DNA of 40,159 bases from the IMG/VR virus record IMGVR_UViG_3300035698_007623, positions 1 to 40,159 of that record. The stretch is one strand, 5' to 3'. Made by a program: the position numbers and the translations under genes. Shown here piece after piece: positions 1-40,159 of the stretch (position 1 is the first letter of the stretch; each line of letters begins with the position of its first letter). The notes under the pieces are model-generated. The model was not told the origin of the DNA and did no database searches. It saw nothing but the letters and a program-made list of their open reading frames with translations. Source of the DNA: a virus.

Positions 1-1199
1 GAACGTACAAAATATGCGCTAACTGCGATAAGACGCTTAAAGAGTACCGCAACTATCTTTGGGACTCTAAAGCTTCAAAGAGAGGTGAAGACAAGCCCCT
101 GAAGCAATGGGACCACTGTTTTGTTGCTGGAACTTTGATTTCTCATTATTTTGGAAAAAGGCAAATAGAACGAATTGCCCCTGGCGATAGAGTCCTGACA
201 AGATCGGGATACAAGGGCGTCATTGATGTATTTGAAAACGAAAGAGAATGTTCGGAATTTATATTATATAATAAGAAAATAACATGTACTCCTGATCATA
301 AGTTTTTTACAATAAATAGAGGATGGCAAGAAATACAACACTTGATACACTCAGATATTCTAATTACAGATTTAATGTGGTTACCATGGTCAAAGTTATC
401 GAATTTAAAGGAATCAAGTATAGATGCTATACAAAATCTAAAAACCTTAGTGACAGAAGATACTATAGAGCGCATAAATCAAACTGCCTTAGGGGATATG
501 GATATTTGCATAGAGACGTTTGGAAACACTATAATGGAGCCATTCCAGAAGGATACCATATTCATCACGTCGACAAAGATACCCTCAACAATAACATTAA
601 CAATCTCGAATGTATACCAGCTTTTGAACATCTATCCAAACATGCTACAGATATTTCAGAAGATCAAAAAGAAGCTAGACGAAAGCATTGTGAAAAAATC
701 CGACCACTTACAAAAGAATGGCACGGAAGCAAAGAGGGAAAGGAGTGGCATAGAGAGCACGCAAAAAAGACCATTTCAACAGGAGAATATAGGGAGTTCT
801 GGTGCGAGCAATGCGGAAATATGTCTATTACACGAAAGCGATCAAAAACAAGATTTTGTTGCAATAACTGTAAAAGCGCATGGAGAAGAGCTAATCACAT
901 TGATGACGAACAAAGAGAATGCGTTTTTTGTAAATCAAAGTTTTTTACAGATAAATATAAAAAAGCAAAATACTGTTCAAAGTCTTGTGCAAGAAAAGAC
1001 TATTGGCAGTCAAAAAGTCTATAATATCCATGTAGAAGACAACCATGAATATTTTGCAGAAAATTTCTTAGTTGCAAATTCGATGGACGCCCAGCGCTAC
1101 GCCCTATATACACATTTTTTTAATAAAAACTTAAGGCCTGAATTCACCGCAGAGGACGCCGATGAGATGGAACGGCTGTATAGCAAAAAATTCAATTGA
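1..1199 (+). CDS. terL: Terminase large subunit, 3' part with intein
   Basis: This is the C-terminal part of the packaging ATPase/nuclease whose 5' part lies at 39009-40159. The frame is continuous across the 127-bp terminal overlap; the codon register here starts at base 3. The precursor would be about 740 residues, or about 419 after removing the 321-residue intein, a normal size for PBSX-type (Terminase_3) large terminases. The exteins meet as ...KPLKQWDH / SMDAQRYALYT..., which restores the conserved D-H-x-M-D-A-x-R-Y motif carrying the last catalytic Asp of the RNase H-like nuclease. The protein cuts concatemeric DNA and drives it through the portal encoded just downstream. Reading stops at TGA 1197-1199. 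Identification from motifs is strong; splicing itself is inferred. Confidence 0.93.
   Translation, partial: TYKICANCDKTLKEYRNYLWDSKASKRGEDKPLKQWDHCFVAGTLISHYFGKRQIERIAPGDRVLTRSGYKGVIDVFENERECSEFILYNKKITCTPDHKFFTINRGWQEIQHLIHSDILITDLMWLPWSKLSNLKESSIDAIQNLKTLVTEDTIERINQTALGDMDICIETFGNTIMEPFQKDTIFITSTKIPSTITLTISNVYQLLNIYPNMLQIFQKIKKKLDESIVKKSDHLQKNGTEAKRERSGIESTQKRPFQQENIGSSGASNAEICLLHESDQKQDFVAITVKAHGEELITLMTNKENAFFVNQSFLQINIKKQNTVQSLVQEKTIGSQKVYNIHVEDNHEYFAENFLVANSMDAQRYALYTHFFNKNLRPEFTAEDADEMERLYSKKFN
117..1079 (+). other. Intein inserted at the terminase nuclease motif
   Basis: This is an in-frame protein-splicing element of 321 residues. Block A starts at Cys1 (CFVAGTLI) and is followed by GKRQIERIAPGDRVLT. 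Block B is TPDHKFFT with Thr58 and His61. Block F is VYNIHVEDNHEYF from residue 301. Block G ends FLVAN with terminal Asn321, and the first downstream extein residue is Ser. The usual penultimate His is Ala320, a variation seen in some inteins. The splicing parts (about residues 1-90 and 300-321) are separated by about 210 residues with no intein or endonuclease motif in this frame. That stretch is the out-of-frame shadow of the HNH gene at 386-1024. The site, between His and Ser of DH/SMDA, is a highly conserved active-site position, typical for inteins. Confidence 0.92.
386..1024 (+). CDS. HNH homing endonuclease nested out of frame in the intein
   Basis: This 212-residue protein is encoded in the frame offset from the intein/terminase frame. 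It opens with MVKVIEFKGIKYRCY, as free-standing phage HNH enzymes often do. The HNH core follows (YLHRDVWKHYNG, then HIHHVDKDTLNNNINNLE with the His-His and Asn residues). Two Cys4 zinc knuckles end it (CEQC...CCNNC and CVFC...CSKSC). Its TAA stop (1022-1024) uses the third base of intein Tyr302 and two bases of Asn303, so it ends exactly at conserved block F. I chose ATG 386 because it matches the family N terminus. ATG 323 (233 residues) has GAGG directly abutting it and is the alternative. No strong Shine-Dalgarno precedes 386, so how it is translated is unclear. It presumably drives homing of the intein gene. Confidence 0.85.
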   Translation: MVKVIEFKGIKYRCYTKSKNLSDRRYYRAHKSNCLRGYGYLHRDVWKHYNGAIPEGYHIHHVDKDTLNNNINNLECIPAFEHLSKHATDISEDQKEARRKHCEKIRPLTKEWHGSKEGKEWHREHAKKTISTGEYREFWCEQCGNMSITRKRSKTRFCCNNCKSAWRRANHIDDEQRECVFCKSKFFTDKYKKAKYCSKSCARKDYWQSKSL

Positions 1200-1273
1200 T
1201 TACAAATAAAATTTTAATTATAATAAAGAAAAGACGACGAAGGGAATCTCAGTAGGTAATTGCCTGCTTTGTA

Positions 1274-1315
1274 GGGAGCCAAGTAAACTAAAACTTTGCT
1301 AATGCTAGCGCTCCC
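1274..1315 (+). ncRNA. Candidate three-way-junction RNA between terL and portal
   Basis: The 184-bp gap after the terminase contains a compact self-complementary block. The outer stem is GGGAGC (1274-1279) with GCTCCC (1310-1315). Inside are hairpin AAGT/ACTT (1281-1284 with 1293-1296, 8-nt loop) and hairpin GCTA/TAGC (1298-1301 with 1306-1309, loop ATGC). The linkers are 1, 1 and 0 nt. A further 6-bp hairpin AGTAGG/CCTGCT lies just upstream (about 1251-1268). A T-rich run (CTTTTATTT) follows, so it could be a terminator, an RNA-processing site or a structured leader of the portal mRNA. The A-T inner stem is weak; no known RNA family was recognised. Confidence 0.4.
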
Positions 1316-1337
1316 GCTCCTTTTATTTAAAAGACTC

Positions 1338-1377
1338 AGAACCACCCTCGCAAGAGGTTGAGTCAACACACGTGAGG
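1338..1377 (+). promoter_or_regulatory. AGAACCAC...ACACGTGAGG leader of the portal gene
   Basis: AGAACCAC (1338-1345) is followed 30 nt from its start by ACACGTGAGG (1368-1377), which supplies the GAGG ribosome-binding site for ATG 1384. Between them CCTC-GCAA-GAGG can form a hairpin with a GNRA loop. The same pair or its first half recurs at 4101, 6418, 20894, 30569 and 36313. The function is unknown. Confidence 0.55.
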
Positions 1378-1383
1378 ACTTAA

Positions 1384-3489
1384 ATGGCACTAAACACAGA
1401 CAATGCTATTGTTCGTGAGTACGACGAATATTATAACGACGCATATTTAGCCTGGAACCCCTTTTACCCCTTAGCCGATAGAGATTTAAGGTATTATCTT
1501 GGCGACCAGTGGGACAACCAGGAGAAGGAAAAGCTATTTGAAGAGGGAAGAAACGCCTATTCATTTAACTTAATTCGCAAGAACATCAACCTTCTTACGG
1601 GCTACCAACGAAAACATAGACTTAGCTCTGTCGTTTCTCCAACCGAAAAATCCGATCAGAAGTCCGCCGACCAACTATCACAATTACTTCTTTATGCTCT
1701 TAATTATGGCGAGGGATATAAGTTTATCTCGGAAGGCTTCGGGGGCGCATTAAAGACTGGTTTTAATCTACTAAACATTTGGATGGATTATAGAGATGAT
1801 CCTATAAATGGAGACATAAAATTTGGTAGGGAGCCATATAACGGCTTTATCGCCGATCCTTATTTCACACAGCTAGACTTTTCAGACTGCTCGTACGTTA
1901 TCAAACGAAAATATCTTTCCCCAGAACAGGGAGCTTCATTATTACCTGGCCAAGAGAAGGATGTCTACACACTAGCAAAACAAGGACAGTCAAGAGACGA
2001 TAAGTTTACCTGGCTCCCGTACCAAACCCAACCAAATGGCCAAGATTTTCTGGCATACAATGAGTTTTACAAGCAAGGCTGGGAAGATGTCGATGTAATA
2101 GTTGACGATGAGACAGGCGAATTTACCGAGTGGGAGGGCGATAAGGACGGCCTTAACTTCTTTTTAAAGCAATACCCGCAACTAACCGTGGTAAAGCGCC
2201 CTAAAAAGTACATTGACTGCCACATTATTGTAAACGACCAGCTAATGAGAACTGAGCGTAACCAATATGGCCTAAACGAGTACCCTTTTGTGCCAATGGT
2301 ATCAATATTCGAGCCAGAATCAGAGCATTGGGGCTTAAAAATGCAGTCTTTAGTTAGATGCCAAATTGATCCACAGCGTGAAACAAACCGTAGACGCTCT
2401 CAAATGATAGATATCCTAGATTCTAGCATAAATGCGGGCTGGATGGCTAAAAAGTCGGCGGTTGTCAACCCAAGATCACTCTTTCAGACCTCACAAGGAA
2501 AAGTTATATGGAAGGAAGACGACGCACAGCCAGGCGATATCGAGCGAATACAGGCATCACAGATACCACAAGGTATGTTCGAGCTACAAAAACAGTTTGA
2601 CCAAGACATAATGAACATTGCAGGCATTAACGATGCCGCTTTTGGTATGACAGAGAATGCCCAAGAGTCGGGAATTATGATGATGCTTAGACAAGGAGCT
2701 TCAATTGTCAACCTACAGGATTTATTTGATAACCTTCGCTATGCACAGAAGTTAATCTCCAAAAAAGCTCTAAAACTAATACAGACATGGAAACCAGAGA
2801 AAGTAGAGCGAATAATAAACGAGAAGCCATCGGGTCAGTTCTATAACCAAGACTTCATCAAGTACGATATAAGCGTACAAGAGGGTGTTCTAACCGACGA
2901 TCAACGTCAAGTCTACTTTAGACAGCTAGTTGACCTCTATCAGCTAACAGGAGCCAACCAAGGAAGTCCAATAACGCCGAAAATGCTACTAGAAGCGGCA
3001 CCATTACAAGGCAAGTCCGAATACAGCGAACAGATAGAGAAAATAGAACAACAACAAGCACAGCAACAGCAGAAACAACAGCAAATCCAACAACAGATAT
3101 TAAACTCAGAGCTTGAGTTAAACAAATCTAACTCCATCAAAAACATCGCTAGCGCTAAAGAGGACTTCACGAGGGGCATAGCAAATATGGGTCTTCATGA
3201 GGAGAGAAACTCAGAGGCTGTACAAAATAGAGCGCAAGCATCACTAGACAGAGCAAGAACAATGAAAGAGCTAGAGTCCATGGATGACGATAGACTAATG
3301 AAGTACATGCAGATTGCACAAATGATGGACGCAATGAACAAAGTTAAGGAAGAGGAGAACAAGGCCGAGGATATAGCGGTCACCGCCTCATCAGAGCGGA
3401 TGAATTCGGCTTTTCCTCAACAGCAACAAACTACAATGGGGCAAGCAGCATCCCCGAGTGGAATTCAAGAACAACCTTCGGAGGTTTAG
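1384..3489 (+). CDS. Portal protein, P22-type
   Basis: At 701 residues this matches the large P22-type portals that form the dodecameric ring at one capsid vertex and dock terminase during packaging. Supporting text includes an N-terminal YYLGDQWD.../NLIRKNINLLTGYQRKHR segment and a central DPQRETNRRRSQMIDIL. The IAGINDAAFGMTENAQESGIMMMLRQG block is also typical of the family. Residues from about 560 are Gln-rich (EQQQAQQQQKQQQ) and then helical, like the C-terminal barrel and core-lining segment of P22-like portals. The gene directly follows terL and precedes scaffold and capsid genes, the standard head-module order. ATG 1384 has GAGG six bases upstream. Confidence 0.93.
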   Translation: MALNTDNAIVREYDEYYNDAYLAWNPFYPLADRDLRYYLGDQWDNQEKEKLFEEGRNAYSFNLIRKNINLLTGYQRKHRLSSVVSPTEKSDQKSADQLSQLLLYALNYGEGYKFISEGFGGALKTGFNLLNIWMDYRDDPINGDIKFGREPYNGFIADPYFTQLDFSDCSYVIKRKYLSPEQGASLLPGQEKDVYTLAKQGQSRDDKFTWLPYQTQPNGQDFLAYNEFYKQGWEDVDVIVDDETGEFTEWEGDKDGLNFFLKQYPQLTVVKRPKKYIDCHIIVNDQLMRTERNQYGLNEYPFVPMVSIFEPESEHWGLKMQSLVRCQIDPQRETNRRRSQMIDILDSSINAGWMAKKSAVVNPRSLFQTSQGKVIWKEDDAQPGDIERIQASQIPQGMFELQKQFDQDIMNIAGINDAAFGMTENAQESGIMMMLRQGASIVNLQDLFDNLRYAQKLISKKALKLIQTWKPEKVERIINEKPSGQFYNQDFIKYDISVQEGVLTDDQRQVYFRQLVDLYQLTGANQGSPITPKMLLEAAPLQGKSEYSEQIEKIEQQQAQQQQKQQQIQQQILNSELELNKSNSIKNIASAKEDFTRGIANMGLHEERNSEAVQNRAQASLDRARTMKELESMDDDRLMKYMQIAQMMDAMNKVKEEENKAEDIAVTASSERMNSAFPQQQQTTMGQAASPSGIQEQPSEV

Positions 3490-3690
3490 ATGAAATATAC
3501 AGACAAAATGCAAAAAAGCATGTCTGCCAAGCCTAATTACGGAAGTGGTTTTAACCTTAAGGACAATACGCAAGCAAGTTCTGTTAAGGGAATTAAAACT
3601 AATTCTGAAAAGTATGACATGGGCAGATGCAAAAAGTATAGTAACGGTTCTAAGGGATATCCATCCCAAGCGTTACCAAATAGTATTTAA
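3490..3690 (+). CDS. Small basic protein of the head module
   Basis: This 66-residue, Lys- and Ser-rich polypeptide (MKYTDKMQKSMSAKPNYG...) starts immediately after the portal stop, with GGAGG in the portal's last codons as its ribosome-binding site, so it is translationally coupled. There is no recognised domain or membrane segment. Its position between portal and scaffold suggests a minor head or assembly protein, but this is inference from context only. Confidence 0.75.
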   Translation: MKYTDKMQKSMSAKPNYGSGFNLKDNTQASSVKGIKTNSEKYDMGRCKKYSNGSKGYPSQALPNSI

Positions 3691-3700
3691 GGAGTAATTT

Positions 3701-4072
3701 ATGGTTCAAGAGACTGGGGAGACCCGAGATGCAATCATTGAAGACGACAACAAAGAAATACAAGCTATCGTGGCTGCTAATAGGGACAAAATGGATCCTT
3801 ATTGGATTGTAGTATTTGCTAAACCGTCCAAGACTGCTGTAGATGGTTATCCCACCTTGATAAAGCATATTAAAGCGTACACAACCAAACCGCCTCCTCA
3901 AGTGGGGATGATAGTAGGTGAAGTTGATAACCACTTAGGAGAAATCCAGTGGGACGTCAACATGCCTCAAAGGCCGTTTGACTTTGATGCGCTGCAATTA
4001 GTAGGAGCAAAGCCCTGCGATGAGGTAATCGTAGAAACTACCTCTATTCCAGGAGCATATATAACAAAATAG
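3701..4072 (+). CDS. Hypothetical head-module protein
   Basis: This 123-residue acidic, probably soluble protein is preceded by AAGGAG eight bases upstream. The sequence has a helical charged start (ETRDAIIEDDNKEIQAIVAA), then a beta-rich part (PYWIVVFAKPSKT..., GMIVGEVDNHLGEIQWDVNM). I recognise no family. It sits between portal and scaffold in an unbroken cotranscribed block, so a structural or assembly role is likely but unproven. Confidence 0.75.
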   Translation: MVQETGETRDAIIEDDNKEIQAIVAANRDKMDPYWIVVFAKPSKTAVDGYPTLIKHIKAYTTKPPPQVGMIVGEVDNHLGEIQWDVNMPQRPFDFDALQLVGAKPCDEVIVETTSIPGAYITK

Positions 4073-4100
4073 TGCCGCCGACATTAGCCATAAAAACCTG

Positions 4101-4108
4101 AGAACCAC
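4101..4108 (+). promoter_or_regulatory. AGAACCAC leader motif before scaffold gene
   Basis: This copy lies in the 74-bp gap between 4072 and the scaffold start, 46 nt ahead of ATG 4147. That is exactly the same distance as the copy before the portal gene. The ACACGTGAGG half is absent; an AAAAAGGAG ribosome-binding site follows instead. Confidence 0.45.
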
Positions 4109-4146
4109 CAGGGGCTAGAACGGGCGATCAAAAAGGAGCTATACGT

Positions 4147-12641: not shown

Positions 12642-13781
12642 ATGGTAACAAAATTAACATATGGTTCAGGACTAGGAGAGGGATTAAGCAGTTTTGGGTC
12701 TTCTATAGCAGGAGCCTTAAAAGAACGAGCTAAAAACCAAAGAATACAAGAGATTATGAAGCCTTATCAACCAACTGTAGGAGAGGGAGAGCCTCCTAAT
12801 GAGGCAGCAACGGACGAGGCCCAGCCAGACACAATGTTGGGAGGAGTTCTTGGAGGAGTCCAAAAAGAAGTTACATCCGTAGAGGACCAGCTGTTTAATC
12901 AAAAAAATGAAGAAATACAGCATAAAAAAAGACAAGCCGCCGCTTTGCAAGCTGAAGGATATATGCCGCAAGCACAAATGATGATGCAAGAAGCTCACCA
13001 ACAAGAAACCTTTTTACAACAAGAGCGTTTACAGGAGAAGAATTTAAATCAAAAAGTTCAACTGCAAAAAGACAACCATGCCTTTAAGCAAAATGAACCA
13101 TACTTTGAAGATATGGAGAAAAAACGCACTGCATTAGAAAATAAAGAGTTAGCTATTAGGCAAATACAAAATGCCTTGTCAAAAGGCAATACAAACACAG
13201 TGAGAAACTTTTTAGCTGCTAGAATGCCAACTGAACAACAGGCAGCTTTTATTAGATCAGATAATGCTCAAGAATTACAAGATGCTATTAAGACATTTTT
13301 CTTAGAAGATTTGAAAGAGCTTCCAAAGGGTGGAAGATTAAATGTGGTATTAGAACAAAATATATTAGGAGCTTTACAATCACCTGGTAAATCAATGGCT
13401 AATAACCAAAAGGGGACTGAATATCAAATTTATAAAAATGATGTAGGTAAAAGGGAGTTGGAAGTATATGACAACTTGTACGATCAATATCTCAAAGCTG
13501 GAAGAGAACCACCTGCAAATCTGAAGAGACAAGTGGACAGAATTATCCAACCGTATGTATCAGGAAGAAAAAAAGAATTAGCGCAAACAATTTATGATAT
13601 AGATCATGGTAAATTAAAATCACCTCAAATGTTAAACATGCCACTTGCTAAAGCAGAAATTAAAGATACTCCTCCAAAACCTGGGTTTACATGGATTATG
13701 TCCCCCAAGGGACAGCCAGTTCAAGCCCCAAATAACGAATTAGATCAATGGTTAAATTCTGGGGGCAAGATAATAAAATGA
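12642..13781 (+). CDS. Internal virion / ejection protein (middle)
   Basis: This 379-residue protein begins at ATG 12642, chosen because GGGAGG lies nine bases upstream; the GTG at 12633 would precede the good site. It is largely helical and Gln/Glu/Lys-rich, with a long coiled-coil-like part (KKRQAAALQAEGYMPQAQ..., residues about 90-175) and a glycine-rich start (YGSGLGEGLSSFGSSIAGAL). The pattern fits DNA-ejection proteins. It overlaps the next gene by four bases (ATGA). Confidence 0.72.
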   Translation: MVTKLTYGSGLGEGLSSFGSSIAGALKERAKNQRIQEIMKPYQPTVGEGEPPNEAATDEAQPDTMLGGVLGGVQKEVTSVEDQLFNQKNEEIQHKKRQAAALQAEGYMPQAQMMMQEAHQQETFLQQERLQEKNLNQKVQLQKDNHAFKQNEPYFEDMEKKRTALENKELAIRQIQNALSKGNTNTVRNFLAARMPTEQQAAFIRSDNAQELQDAIKTFFLEDLKELPKGGRLNVVLEQNILGALQSPGKSMANNQKGTEYQIYKNDVGKRELEVYDNLYDQYLKAGREPPANLKRQVDRIIQPYVSGRKKELAQTIYDIDHGKLKSPQMLNMPLAKAEIKDTPPKPGFTWIMSPKGQPVQAPNNELDQWLNSGGKIIK

Positions 13782-16270
13782 GTACACAACTAGATTGGGA
13801 TTCTTTGGAAGGGCTAAATCCGAGTGGCCAAGCTGCGCCGCCGCAACAGCAAACAGCATCTAAACAAACACAGCAGCTAGACTGGGACTCTTTAGATAGT
13901 TTACCTAATTATGAAACTCGGGAGACTCAACAGCAAGAAGGTTTTCTTAAATCTACATCTAGAAATTTAATGCAACCAGTATTAGGTGCATTAGAGGTTA
14001 CAACGCCTGGCTTAATAACAGGAGGATGGCAACTATTAGGAAGTGGGGAAGCGTTAGCTGAGATGCAAGATTGGGAGTATGGAAATAAAGAAGCGGAACT
14101 AAGAAAGAGATTCCCTTCAGCACCTTGGACAGATAAGCCTGTTTTTAATAAAGAAAAATATATGGAAGCATTACAAGCTGCAAGTAGTACTATTCCAACA
14201 GTTGATAATATAGCTTCCTTTTTAGAAAAGAATACTGGTTTGCCATTAGAAGCGAGAACAAAGTGGAACAAACGATTAAGATTAGCTGGAAGTGCTGGAA
14301 AAATTAGACCTGGAGGAGTAGCTAAAAAGGCGACTGCTGGAGTTATCGCACCACTTGCTTCAGAAGGTTTACAAGCAATGGGTGTTCCAGAGGCAATAGC
14401 TAATCCAGTTTCATTAGGCATATCTACAGGAGTGCCGCTTCCAAAGGCTACTAAAGTAACAAAACCCTCAGGAATGCCAACTAGATGGTATGAAAGTTTA
14501 AAAAAAGACACCAAATTATCTCCTGAACAATATGGGAATGTTAAGGGAGCTGTTGAGAGTGATGTTAAAAAACTTACTACTGATCTAATTAAAAAAGAAA
14601 GTGAAACAGCAAGAATGTTAGCTGAAGATCCTTCATTCCCATCTAAGATTAATGATACATTCAAAGACGTTGAAAGAATATCTAAAAATATAACAGATAC
14701 AGTTCCAATGCAAGAAATTAAAACGAATTATATTAAGAAAGCAAATGAGAGGTTAAGAAACACTAAAGGTTTATCTAAGAATGAGTTTGAACAAGCATAT
14801 GTAAAAGAAGTAGGAGAAATAGCTAAGACCATGCCTAGTAAAGGCGAAGCTTCAATGGCTAAGTCAGTAGAACAATATCGTAAGAATAATGAAAGTTTTG
14901 GAGAGCTATATGAGCCTGGAAAGTCAGGAGCTAAAAACAGAGCTAAAAGAGAAGCATTATTAGACTATAATAGGACTATAGGAGATACATTTGAAACACA
15001 TCACCCCGATTCTGAATTTAATAAGTTATTCAAATATTCAAATAAAAAATATAGCGAATTAATGGATTTAGAGAATATTGATGGTTTCATGGGTAAAGTA
15101 TTTGGAGATAAGATTAATTATAAAGAGGCTAATAAGTTTTTTAAAGACAAGAGAACACAGAGATCATTTAAAAATATCCTTGGTAAAGAGGGCTACAAGG
15201 ATATGGAAGCTATAATGAAAGACTTCCTCCCTACTGAGAAGGCAATGTCTTTACTTAAAAAAGGTGAAGCCCTAGGCCTTATTGATATAATGAAGCTAGG
15301 TGGTAAATGGGTAATCAGTCCTTTGTGGAGCAAAGCATCAGCATTAAATAAAGGTGTAAAGATACTTAGAAATAAAATGCTAGCAACGCCTAAATTCAGA
15401 GTAAAATGGGAAAGCGTATTAAAAGATTTTAAAAAAGGAAACCTGAAAGAAGCTCAAGCTGGATTTAAAGAATTAGATGCTATAGAGAAGCAAACGTATG
15501 ATAAAGTGAAAGCTGTTTATCAGAAAATAGATAATACTAATCCTTCAATAGAAAATTCAAAGATTTTAGATCAGATACTAGAAATAAATCCTGAGTTTAT
15601 AAAAAGAAAAGGTTTAAAAAATGAACCTATGCGTCATTTAAGAAAGTCTGATGTATTTGGTACTAAAAAAACAGGATTTGATAGAGTAAGTTTAAGAGAA
15701 TGGGAAAAGTATTTAGATAAAGATAAATATTTTAGATATTATGGGGCTCATGAGCTCGGAGAAACACATTTAGGAAAAGTTGGTGATTTAATAAAAGATC
15801 CACGATTAAGAAAAGAATTAAAGGAAGTATTAGATGTGCCTGTTTATGTAAACCCAAAATTGCCTAGAGTGAGTTTTGGAAAAAACAATGCATTTCATAC
15901 TACTGATGGAAAGCTAATTCCTGAATTGTCTAAAATTGAAATTAGAAATGACTTATCCCCAGAGCAATTTCGCACAACGTTAGCTCATGAAGGATTACAT
16001 GGATTGCAAAACAAAAGAATAAATAAGAAAACAGGAAAGACAAGGACTTTTGAAAGATACGAAAAGGGATTAAAGGAGGCAAAAGCTTTAACAGCAGCCG
16101 AAAAAGCAGACCCAGAGTTTATGCATAAATTTTATTTAAAAAAATTAAATGAAGTCCAGGCTCGTAAATTTGATAGATGGGTGAGCAGAGATGTCAATAA
16201 ATATAGATCAACACTTGAAAAGACAAAGGTAGTAAAGCAATTACTAGAAGTACAAAAAAAGACTAAATAG
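13778..16270 (+). CDS. Large internal virion protein with HExxH metallopeptidase-like end
   Basis: This 830-residue protein is read from ATG 13778, which overlaps the previous stop as ATGA; an in-frame ATG at 13748 is a less likely start. Two LDWDSL motifs lie near residues 5-10 and 38-43. A hydrophobic, glycine-rich zone follows (about 60-240), then helical charged repeats. The C terminus contains TLAHEGLHGLQ, an HExxH zinc-ligand motif (His737, Glu738, His741), with Glu792 in NEVQAR as a possible third ligand. Such domains occur in large polyvalent ejected proteins. It may enter the host with the DNA and act as a protease, but the catalytic claim rests on the motif alone. Being last in the structural block fits an ejection protein. 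Confidence 0.75.
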   Translation: MSTQLDWDSLEGLNPSGQAAPPQQQTASKQTQQLDWDSLDSLPNYETRETQQQEGFLKSTSRNLMQPVLGALEVTTPGLITGGWQLLGSGEALAEMQDWEYGNKEAELRKRFPSAPWTDKPVFNKEKYMEALQAASSTIPTVDNIASFLEKNTGLPLEARTKWNKRLRLAGSAGKIRPGGVAKKATAGVIAPLASEGLQAMGVPEAIANPVSLGISTGVPLPKATKVTKPSGMPTRWYESLKKDTKLSPEQYGNVKGAVESDVKKLTTDLIKKESETARMLAEDPSFPSKINDTFKDVERISKNITDTVPMQEIKTNYIKKANERLRNTKGLSKNEFEQAYVKEVGEIAKTMPSKGEASMAKSVEQYRKNNESFGELYEPGKSGAKNRAKREALLDYNRTIGDTFETHHPDSEFNKLFKYSNKKYSELMDLENIDGFMGKVFGDKINYKEANKFFKDKRTQRSFKNILGKEGYKDMEAIMKDFLPTEKAMSLLKKGEALGLIDIMKLGGKWVISPLWSKASALNKGVKILRNKMLATPKFRVKWESVLKDFKKGNLKEAQAGFKELDAIEKQTYDKVKAVYQKIDNTNPSIENSKILDQILEINPEFIKRKGLKNEPMRHLRKSDVFGTKKTGFDRVSLREWEKYLDKDKYFRYYGAHELGETHLGKVGDLIKDPRLRKELKEVLDVPVYVNPKLPRVSFGKNNAFHTTDGKLIPELSKIEIRNDLSPEQFRTTLAHEGLHGLQNKRINKKTGKTRTFERYEKGLKEAKALTAAEKADPEFMHKFYLKKLNEVQARKFDRWVSRDVNKYRSTLEKTKVVKQLLEVQKKTK

Positions 16271-39008: not shown

Positions 39009-40159
39009 ATGGAATTAACAAGCCTAAGCAATAAGCAAATTGAATCTTATAGAGAGTCTACGGCACGTATCAACATTTTTGAAGGCCCCGTTAGAGCTGG
39101 CAAGTCTTTTATAGGGCTGCTTAAGTGGCTAGACTTTTGCAGAAGCGGCCCAAAAGGGCCACTAATTATATGTGGAAGAACAGATAAGACAATAAAAAGA
39201 AACATTATATCACCGCTACAAGACTTAGTGGGAAATGCAGTGCAATATTCAATAGGAAAGGGTGAGGTAACGCTTTACAATAGGACAATGTATGTGGTGG
39301 GGGCCAACGATGATAGGGCTGAGGCTAAAATTCGTGGATCTGAGTTTGCGGGGGCTTTACTTGATGAAGTTACACTGCTTCCAGAAAATTTCTTTAAAAT
39401 GCTGCTATCTAGGCTTTCAATACCAGGTTCTCAGCTCTTTTGTTCTACTAACCCAGACTCTCCATATCACTGGCTTAAGACTGATTTTATGGATAGACGG
39501 GATGAGCTAGATTTGAAGGTTTTTTCTTATAGTATACACGACAACCCCACGCTATCTAAGAAGTATATCGCCGACTTATCGGCAGAGTACCAGGGACTTT
39601 GGTACAAAAGATATATTATGGGAGAGTGGGTACAAGCTGATGGAGCTGTTTATGACTTCTTTGAAGACGAAGTTCACGTTATCCAAATGCCCGTTTCCCA
39701 GGCTGATTATTATATTGTGGGCATTGACTATGGCACTACCAATCCTTGTGTATTCACTCTTATAGGCTATAACTCGGGCAGTTACCCTAACATGTGGTTA
39801 GAAAAGGAATATTACTTTGATTCTAAGAAAGAGCTAAGGCAGAAGTCAGACTATGACTACTCACTGGACTTGGTGGAGTTTATAAGGGGATATAACGTGA
39901 AGAAAATCTATATTGACCCTTCTGCCGCTTCATTTAAACAAGAGCTGCGCCGCAATGGCCTACACAACGTGATAGACGCTGTAAACGATGTAGTACCTGG
40001 TATACGGTTTCAATCACAGCTTTTAACCAATGGAACGTACAAAATATGCGCTAACTGCGATAAGACGCTTAAAGAGTACCGCAACTATCTTTGGGACTCT
40101 AAAGCTTCAAAGAGAGGTGAAGACAAGCCCCTGAAGCAATGGGACCACTGTTTTGTTGC
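39009..40159 (+). CDS. terL: Terminase large subunit, 5' part
   Basis: This is the N-terminal ATPase and most of the nuclease domain, continuing in frame at base 3 of the window. The Walker A box is FEGPVRAGKS (about residues 23-32). The Walker B box is ALLDEVTLL with the catalytic Glu, followed by the coupling motif FCSTNPDSP. The nuclease begins VGIDYGTTNPCVFTLIGY (first catalytic Asp), with a second Asp in KIYIDPSAASFKQEL. The window end cuts the gene eleven bases into the intein. ATG 39009 has only a weak ribosome-binding site (AAGTGAG), fitting coupling to upstream translation. Confidence 0.93.
   Translation, partial: MELTSLSNKQIESYRESTARINIFEGPVRAGKSFIGLLKWLDFCRSGPKGPLIICGRTDKTIKRNIISPLQDLVGNAVQYSIGKGEVTLYNRTMYVVGANDDRAEAKIRGSEFAGALLDEVTLLPENFFKMLLSRLSIPGSQLFCSTNPDSPYHWLKTDFMDRRDELDLKVFSYSIHDNPTLSKKYIADLSAEYQGLWYKRYIMGEWVQADGAVYDFFEDEVHVIQMPVSQADYYIVGIDYGTTNPCVFTLIGYNSGSYPNMWLEKEYYFDSKKELRQKSDYDYSLDLVEFIRGYNVKKIYIDPSAASFKQELRRNGLHNVIDAVNDVVPGIRFQSQLLTNGTYKICANCDKTLKEYRNYLWDSKASKRGEDKPLKQWDHCFV
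40033..40159 (+). repeat. 127-bp terminal overlap with bases 1-127
   Basis: The last 127 bases are identical to the first 127. The length equals a common maximal assembly k-mer, so this most likely marks a circular assembly of a circular or terminally redundant genome rather than a true genomic repeat. It lies inside terL, and the joined frame is intact, giving a unique length of 40,032 bases. Confidence 0.95.

Follow-up and report, generated by a model that had tools for sequence, protein, structure and literature searches.

The terminase large subunit gene (terL) of a viral contig is likely to harbour a mobile intein whose homing endonuclease is a separate protein, overprinted in another reading frame of the intein; splicing, translation of the HNH gene and cleavage are inferred. 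The contig is the IMG/VR record IMGVR_UViG_3300035698_007623, the whole 40,159 nucleotides of which are referred to here as the window. In the mechanism proposed, translation of terL would yield a precursor from which two Hint segments (residues about 1-88 and 290-321) would excise the intein and restore the nuclease motif, and ribosomes initiating within the gene (at ATG 386 here) would produce a free HNH protein of ~25 kDa with two zinc knuckles. This protein would cleave the conserved nuclease motif of terL alleles that lack the intein, and repair of the break would copy the whole element together with its flanks; the signature of such copying was seen directly in one phage pair. A bolder reading, towards which the evidence leans without settling it, is that of an undescribed and widespread intein class, present in phages and prophages of bacteria and archaea, kept through deep divergence and homing recently, whose splicing domain and homing endonuclease are two proteins overprinted on the same DNA.

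The terL locus of the window

By ORF reading, the frame 3..1199 is stop-free and passes from the TerL extein through the intein and a Ser to the TerL tail (Table 1). The ends of the window share an exact terminal repeat of 127 bp (1-127 = 40033-40159). The window is a circularised contig whose ends cut terL right at the intein start, and the start of TerL is therefore found near 39009, at the opposite contig end. There the N-extein frame is open from 39003, with its first ATG at 39009, and has a PHROG match to the terminase large subunit; with the ends joined, TerL and intein form a frame of 743 codons. The insertion point (^) lies inside the TerL motif DH^S-MDAQRY. Elsewhere in the window, a 245-aa antisense ORF without a Pfam match (13927-14664, minus strand) lies beneath an 840-aa gene (13748-16270).

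Table 1. Features of the terL locus in the window (positions in nucleotides of the window)
Feature	Position	Strand	Basis or remark
TerL N-terminal part (N-extein)	39009..40159	+	Runs over circular junction into 1-116
End of TerL N-extein	1..116	+	Ends at QWDH immediately 5' of the insertion; continuous frame
TerL intein, 321 codons, Cys1 to Asn321	117..1079	+	Pfam Intein_splicing; no in-frame stop
N-terminal splicing (Hint) segment, intein residues 1-88, blocks A and B	117..380	+	AlphaFold, Foldseek
C-terminal splicing segment, intein residues 290-321, blocks F and G	984..1079	+	AlphaFold, profile match to solved inteins
Overprinted HNH endonuclease gene, 212 aa + stop	386..1024	+	Relative frame +2 to TerL
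HNH core, residues about 40-86 (H42, H60, H61, N69, N73, H82, H86)	503..643	+	
First zinc knuckle, C140-x2-C143 ... C158-x3-C162	803..871	+	
Second zinc knuckle, C179-x2-C182 ... C197-x3-C201	920..988	+	
Block F Tyr-Asn codons TAT AAT	1020..1025	+	Bases 1022-1024 = HNH stop TAA
TerL C-extein, Ser+1 then MDAQRYALYTH...	1080..1199	+	Continuous frame; stop 1197-1199

The initial annotation, made from sequence alone, had described an intein frame open from Cys1 to Asn321 (117-1079), a complete HNH protein with core and two zinc knuckles at 386-1024 in another frame, an HNH stop built from the block F Tyr-Asn codons, and a third frame that is quickly stopped. All four claims held: the first by frame reading and Pfam, and the third by direct reading, as the final T of Tyr TAT (1020-1022) joins with the two As that begin Asn AAT (1023-1025) to give the TAA. 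Across the HNH gene the third frame is interrupted by 25 stops, TAA 406 and TAG 421 among them.

The intein gave a Pfam Intein_splicing match of 5.7e-10 and has the splicing motifs Cys1, block B TxxH (Thr58, His61), C-terminal Asn321 and Ser+1. Cys1, Thr58, His61 and the terminal Asn are kept in each of the 63 non-redundant relatives described below, where the +1 residue is Cys (56/63) or Ser (7/63); the penultimate residue in the window is Ala and not His, as it also is in two of the 63. A Hint fold is predicted, the AlphaFold pLDDT being mostly >90 at residues 1-88, about 87-96 at residues 290-321 and mostly <60 between these segments. Foldseek searches with the predicted intein returned inteins, and gp41-1 was the nearest solved structure in both profile and fold searches.

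The HNH protein matched Pfam HNH_3 (2.9e-14) and PHROG 15471 (5.8e-37), and its predicted structure has a mean pLDDT of 93.7. Its ORF occupies 323-1024, so that a 5' extension to ATG 323 is possible; the start at ATG 386, giving 212 aa, is backed by the alignment of homologues. Residues H42, H60, H61, N73 and H82 are kept in 63/63 relatives, and N69 and H86 in 62/63; the cysteines of the first zinc knuckle are likewise universal among them, and the second knuckle is kept in 56-57 and missing in six. A PDB sequence search with the HNH protein found no relative, and a fold search gave no significant match, the top weak match being I-HmuI.

An alternative view is that the insertion is an RNA intron carrying an HNH gene, with the open TerL frame and the likeness to Hint domains being incidental. 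Phage group I introns often carry HNH genes (a point also made in PMC11855218). Against this view stand the intein residues conserved throughout the 63 relatives, the invariable Cys or Ser at +1 and the confident prediction of a Hint fold, and the intron reading is thus very unlikely. Searches of Rfam gave no match up to E=1 in window positions 1-1400 and no intron at the gathering score in nine relatives, and a group I intron identity was rejected on these grounds.

Recurrence of the overprinted frame

The overprinted layout recurs well beyond the window. A tblastn search of phage records revealed relatives in phages TJE1 (Tetrasphaera) and Highwayman (Acinetobacter), a Rhodobacteraceae phage and a gut phage contig, each with an intein-frame match over all 321 aa and an HNH match in another frame of terL. 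A further 146 loci, from profile scans of IMG/VR and of GTDB genomes, brought the total to 172; the profile was built from a closer subset of a 16-sequence HNH alignment, the full set being too divergent, and the sampling is skewed to relatives of the window HNH. The initial annotation had suggested a search for out-of-frame HNH genes in other TerL inteins, and 74 cases were found, on 73 of the 172 loci, in which N-intein, HNH gene and C-intein occur with the intein frame spanning the HNH gene. They come from phage, virus-contig, bacterial and archaeal sequences, and 63 are non-redundant at 80% HNH identity. The relative frame of HNH to intein is identical in 74/74, and is never that of the splicing domain.

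Most insertions coincide with the TerL nuclease motif D/N-H ^ C/S-x-D-A-x-R-Y or are only a few residues away from it, and the host TerLs span different Pfam terminase families. Named source genomes belong to Bacteroidota, Omnitrophota, Acidobacteriota, Patescibacteria, Bacillota, Pseudomonadota and two archaeal phyla; the loci in bacterial and archaeal genomes are likely to be prophages or co-binned phage contigs. No relative with an in-frame HNH was found at this TerL site among the loci examined, and the in-frame HNH inteins encountered sat in RtcB (L167, L169).

Several loci are unusual in their composition. In a Clostridium MAG (L131, CAMBEE010000024.1) one TerL frame contains two overprinted HNH inteins (1730-2743 and 3176-4129), at sites that differ from each other and neither of which is the usual DAxRY motif. 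A Nitrosotalea MAG (L136, JAHEYD010000005.1) has an ORF (2-3793) in which an in-frame LAGLIDADG domain and an overprinted HNH intein share one frame. Two further loci of the overprinted type (L110 and L113) have an intein frame that shifts inside the stretch, the HNH frame of L110 shifting as well; draft-assembly indels or genuine splitting are both possible causes.

The arrangement could be due to chance or artefact, either because the open intein frame is accidental or because paired assembly indels moved an in-frame endonuclease out of frame. The first possibility was assessed with a null in which the HNH protein is fixed and synonymous codons are redrawn from the gene's own usage. For the window alone, 3.0 intein-frame stops were expected and 2.85% of draws were stop-free; the single case is not decisive, because its P is about 0.03, and the earlier chance estimate of well under 1 in 10,000 failed. 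The significance is drawn instead from the 63 non-redundant relatives, in which no intein-frame stop was observed over the HNH genes, as compared to 183 expected. The null is calibrated, since 52 related HNH genes not classed as overprinted gave 368 stops against 367.6 expected; four of these controls were later found to be overprinted (two with frame shifts) and contribute no stops. In the third frame, 1397 stops were observed and 1426 expected. Although the relatives cannot be counted as independent draws, the HNH identity is <55% in most pairs, and in a tree of 114 HNH proteins the median end branch is 0.67 changes per column.

The overlapping-gene reading of the initial annotation thus held, as neither frame is broken in any of the 63 cases and their relative phase never varies. 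That annotation had also named what would overturn it, namely indels that compensate one another or relatives in which the intein frame is broken, and neither was borne out in the independent assemblies. With independent assemblies and isolate genomes sharing one relative frame, and with the intein residues retained in every case, chance and artefact are all but excluded. Outside intact inteins the intein-type frame has about 7 stops per HNH gene and the other frame about 21, and it is possible that this paucity of stops explains why the same frame is used every time.

Where information resides in the two frames is indicated by the distribution of substitutions. In pairwise comparisons of overprinted loci, substitutions by TerL-frame codon position were 0.36/0.32/0.64 in the extein and 0.37/0.29/0.60 in the N-intein, and by HNH-frame position 0.36/0.30/0.55 in the overlap, where HNH-frame third positions are intein-frame second positions. 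The codon periodicity thus changes over to the HNH frame within the overlap. The synonymous-site comparison proposed in the initial annotation showed fourfold sites to be only slightly more conserved in overprinted pairs than in other pairs of similar divergence (<55% identity). Intein and HNH distances correlate weakly at such divergence, too weakly to demonstrate joint inheritance, and this line of evidence was set aside. Read in the intein frame, the HNH region is likely to be a loosely constrained linker whose main need is to lack stop codons. As the intein frame is unbroken across the HNH gene in the window and in the 63 cases, host gene and intein are not split. PHROG 35162, a family without known function, is matched by the HNH region when read in the intein frame (window 531-1082), and may therefore, in part, be a by-product of the overprinted gene.

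Inferred expression and mobility of the HNH gene

Internal initiation of the HNH gene is inferred, with support from the enrichment of ribosome-binding sites across relatives. A start codon occurs at the expected position in 58 of the 63 genes (ATG in 54, GTG in 4), and a Shine-Dalgarno match of >=4 nt precedes 65.5% of these starts versus 18.2% of other ATGs in those regions (P=9e-15). The gene ends exactly 55 nt before the intein end in 31/63, its stop being formed in these by the T of a Tyr/Phe codon and the first two bases of the following codon (block F). Ribosomal frameshifting after the N-intein, which would yield a TerL-IntN-HNH fusion without an internal start, is a possible rival. 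It draws support from the HNH ORF, which is commonly open 5' of its ATG, and from the window start at ATG 386, which has only a weak ribosome-binding match. Nevertheless, the regular placement of the start codons, the strong Shine-Dalgarno enrichment and the in-frame stops that lie close upstream of the start in most cases render frameshifting unlikely.

Evidence for mobility of the element comes from pairs of filled and empty alleles. Highwayman has an empty-site partner in the near-identical Acinetobacter phage Acba_21, whose TerL of 433 aa lacks the 981-nt intein. Over 3,082 aligned flanking nucleotides all 14 differences, two of which are alignment gaps at the junction, fall within -162..+13 of the insertion, and the two phages show no difference at all from -1608 to -163 or from +14 to +1474. 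The +1 residue is Leu in the empty Acba_21 and Cys in the filled Highwayman. Such confinement of the differences to one tract is the signature of recent homing with co-conversion, seen in this one pair only. Bacteroides phage BS-TP2 is an empty partner of MT838676 (98.4% identity), with a change of Gly to Cys at +1. No empty-site partner of the window itself was found.

It may also be argued that the HNH protein is overprinted and made, yet serves DNA packaging together with TerL, as an HK97-type HNH, and not homing. A packaging role has been reported for the HNH adjoining the terminase of HK97 (cited in PMC10448857), and free relatives of the present HNH family adjoin terL or terS in PAE1, CL2, EauM-23, Shemara and BP10. 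However, the near-identical phages Acba_21 and BS-TP2 live without the element, the co-conversion tract marks homing, and a single motif is occupied across different TerL families. The packaging role is thus considered unlikely and homing remains the preferred reading.

Related arrangements and implications

Other arrangements occupy the same TerL motif. Microcystis phage Mic1 (L180, 1501-1914) has a mini-intein without endonuclease (DHL^CDALRY), and in about 20 TerL loci, such as that of Lactobacillus phage CL2, N-intein, HNH gene (of the same HNH family) and C-intein are separate ORFs. The split C-inteins end differently (VYNMEV..HNFAVNGG.IVHN) and are thus not merely overprinted inteins that have broken. 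The HNH tree groups by arrangement (19 changes versus 42.7 with shuffled labels) and yields no direction of change. The idea put forward in the initial annotation, that the overprinted locus is an intermediate between mini-inteins and endonuclease inteins, therefore held only in part: empty, mini-intein, overprinted and split states exist at the same motif, but the split signature differs and the tree is without direction.

Two loci in which TerL appears split may be described individually. In CL2 (L022, 1670-2771) the N-intein ends the annotated terL and is followed by the HNH gene and then by an unannotated C-intein ORF with a TerL DAxRY end. In Vibrio phage 1.238.A (L020) TerL is seemingly split, with the N-intein at the end of the annotated terL and the HNH gene next; a hint-domain protein follows, unconfirmed as the C-half.

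The initial annotation knew of no described example, a statement which held in part. In phage ShiLan (2025, PMC11855218) an out-of-frame HNH is found in a methylase insertion without a splicing element. The two systems share a zinc-finger HNH in another frame of an open host-gene insertion, the same relative frame (HNH = host +2, checked here) and a patchy, homing-like distribution. They differ in that the present element has a splicing domain and resides in TerL, whereas the ShiLan host is a methylase with neither intein nor intron. The ShiLan HNH is only remotely similar to that of the TerL inteins and has a different architecture, in the order zinc-HNH-zinc.

Two layouts are generally described for inteins: the endonuclease is either in frame with the splicing domain or encoded by a free gene that the two halves of a split intein flank. 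The TerL elements resemble classical inteins (of the PI-SceI type, or those of RtcB noted above) in their Hint domain, their insertion in a catalytic motif and their central homing endonuclease; in the classical type, however, the endonuclease is part of the spliced polypeptide, and here it is a separate protein in another frame. Dassa et al. (2009) reportedly described fractured genes, in which a free homing endonuclease gene lies between the halves of a split intein, and gp41-1 belongs to this kind of split intein. The free-standing endonuclease between splicing halves is a common feature, and the about 20 split TerL loci share that layout, but the overprinted intein is unsplit, its frame running through the endonuclease gene. 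Mycobacteriophage TerL inteins are splicing-competent, some with an active endonuclease (Kelley et al. 2016, PMC5050341), and lie in the ATPase domain, whereas the overprinted ones are mostly in the nuclease motif; the relevant passages of that paper contain no out-of-frame endonuclease. In the portal intein of mycobacteriophage ET08 no hidden HNH was recognised by eye, and its long alternative frames looked like GC-rich noise.

ShiLan was the only direct precedent in the literature searched, a coverage that did not include a preprint by Gosselin et al. (2025, 10.1101/2025.01.02.630785) on actinobacteriophage inteins with "non-canonical architecture". PMC11855218 cites this preprint for overlapping reading frames being frequent in actinobacteriophages, and it is possible that it describes out-of-frame endonucleases in inteins, overlapping the TerL family. 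Since the nearest precedents differ, ShiLan in lacking an intein and the mycobacteriophage TerL inteins in their ATPase-domain position, there is a good chance, if by no means a certainty, that the TerL family itself is undescribed.

The overprinted layout represents a third, recurrent intein arrangement that annotated terL genes conceal; in TJE1, for example, the HNH gene within terL is unannotated. What renders the insert harmless and what probably enables it to spread are encoded by one and the same stretch of DNA. As one frame specifies an endonuclease and the other has mainly to stay open, the family offers a clean natural system for studying the evolution of overlapping genes. Transitions between mini-intein, split and endonuclease-intein states become testable at a single TerL site, and homing assays could readily start from the near-identical phages with and without the element. 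Should the bolder reading prove true, overlapping coding would be a stable way of sheltering an endonuclease within protein splicing without fusing the two activities.
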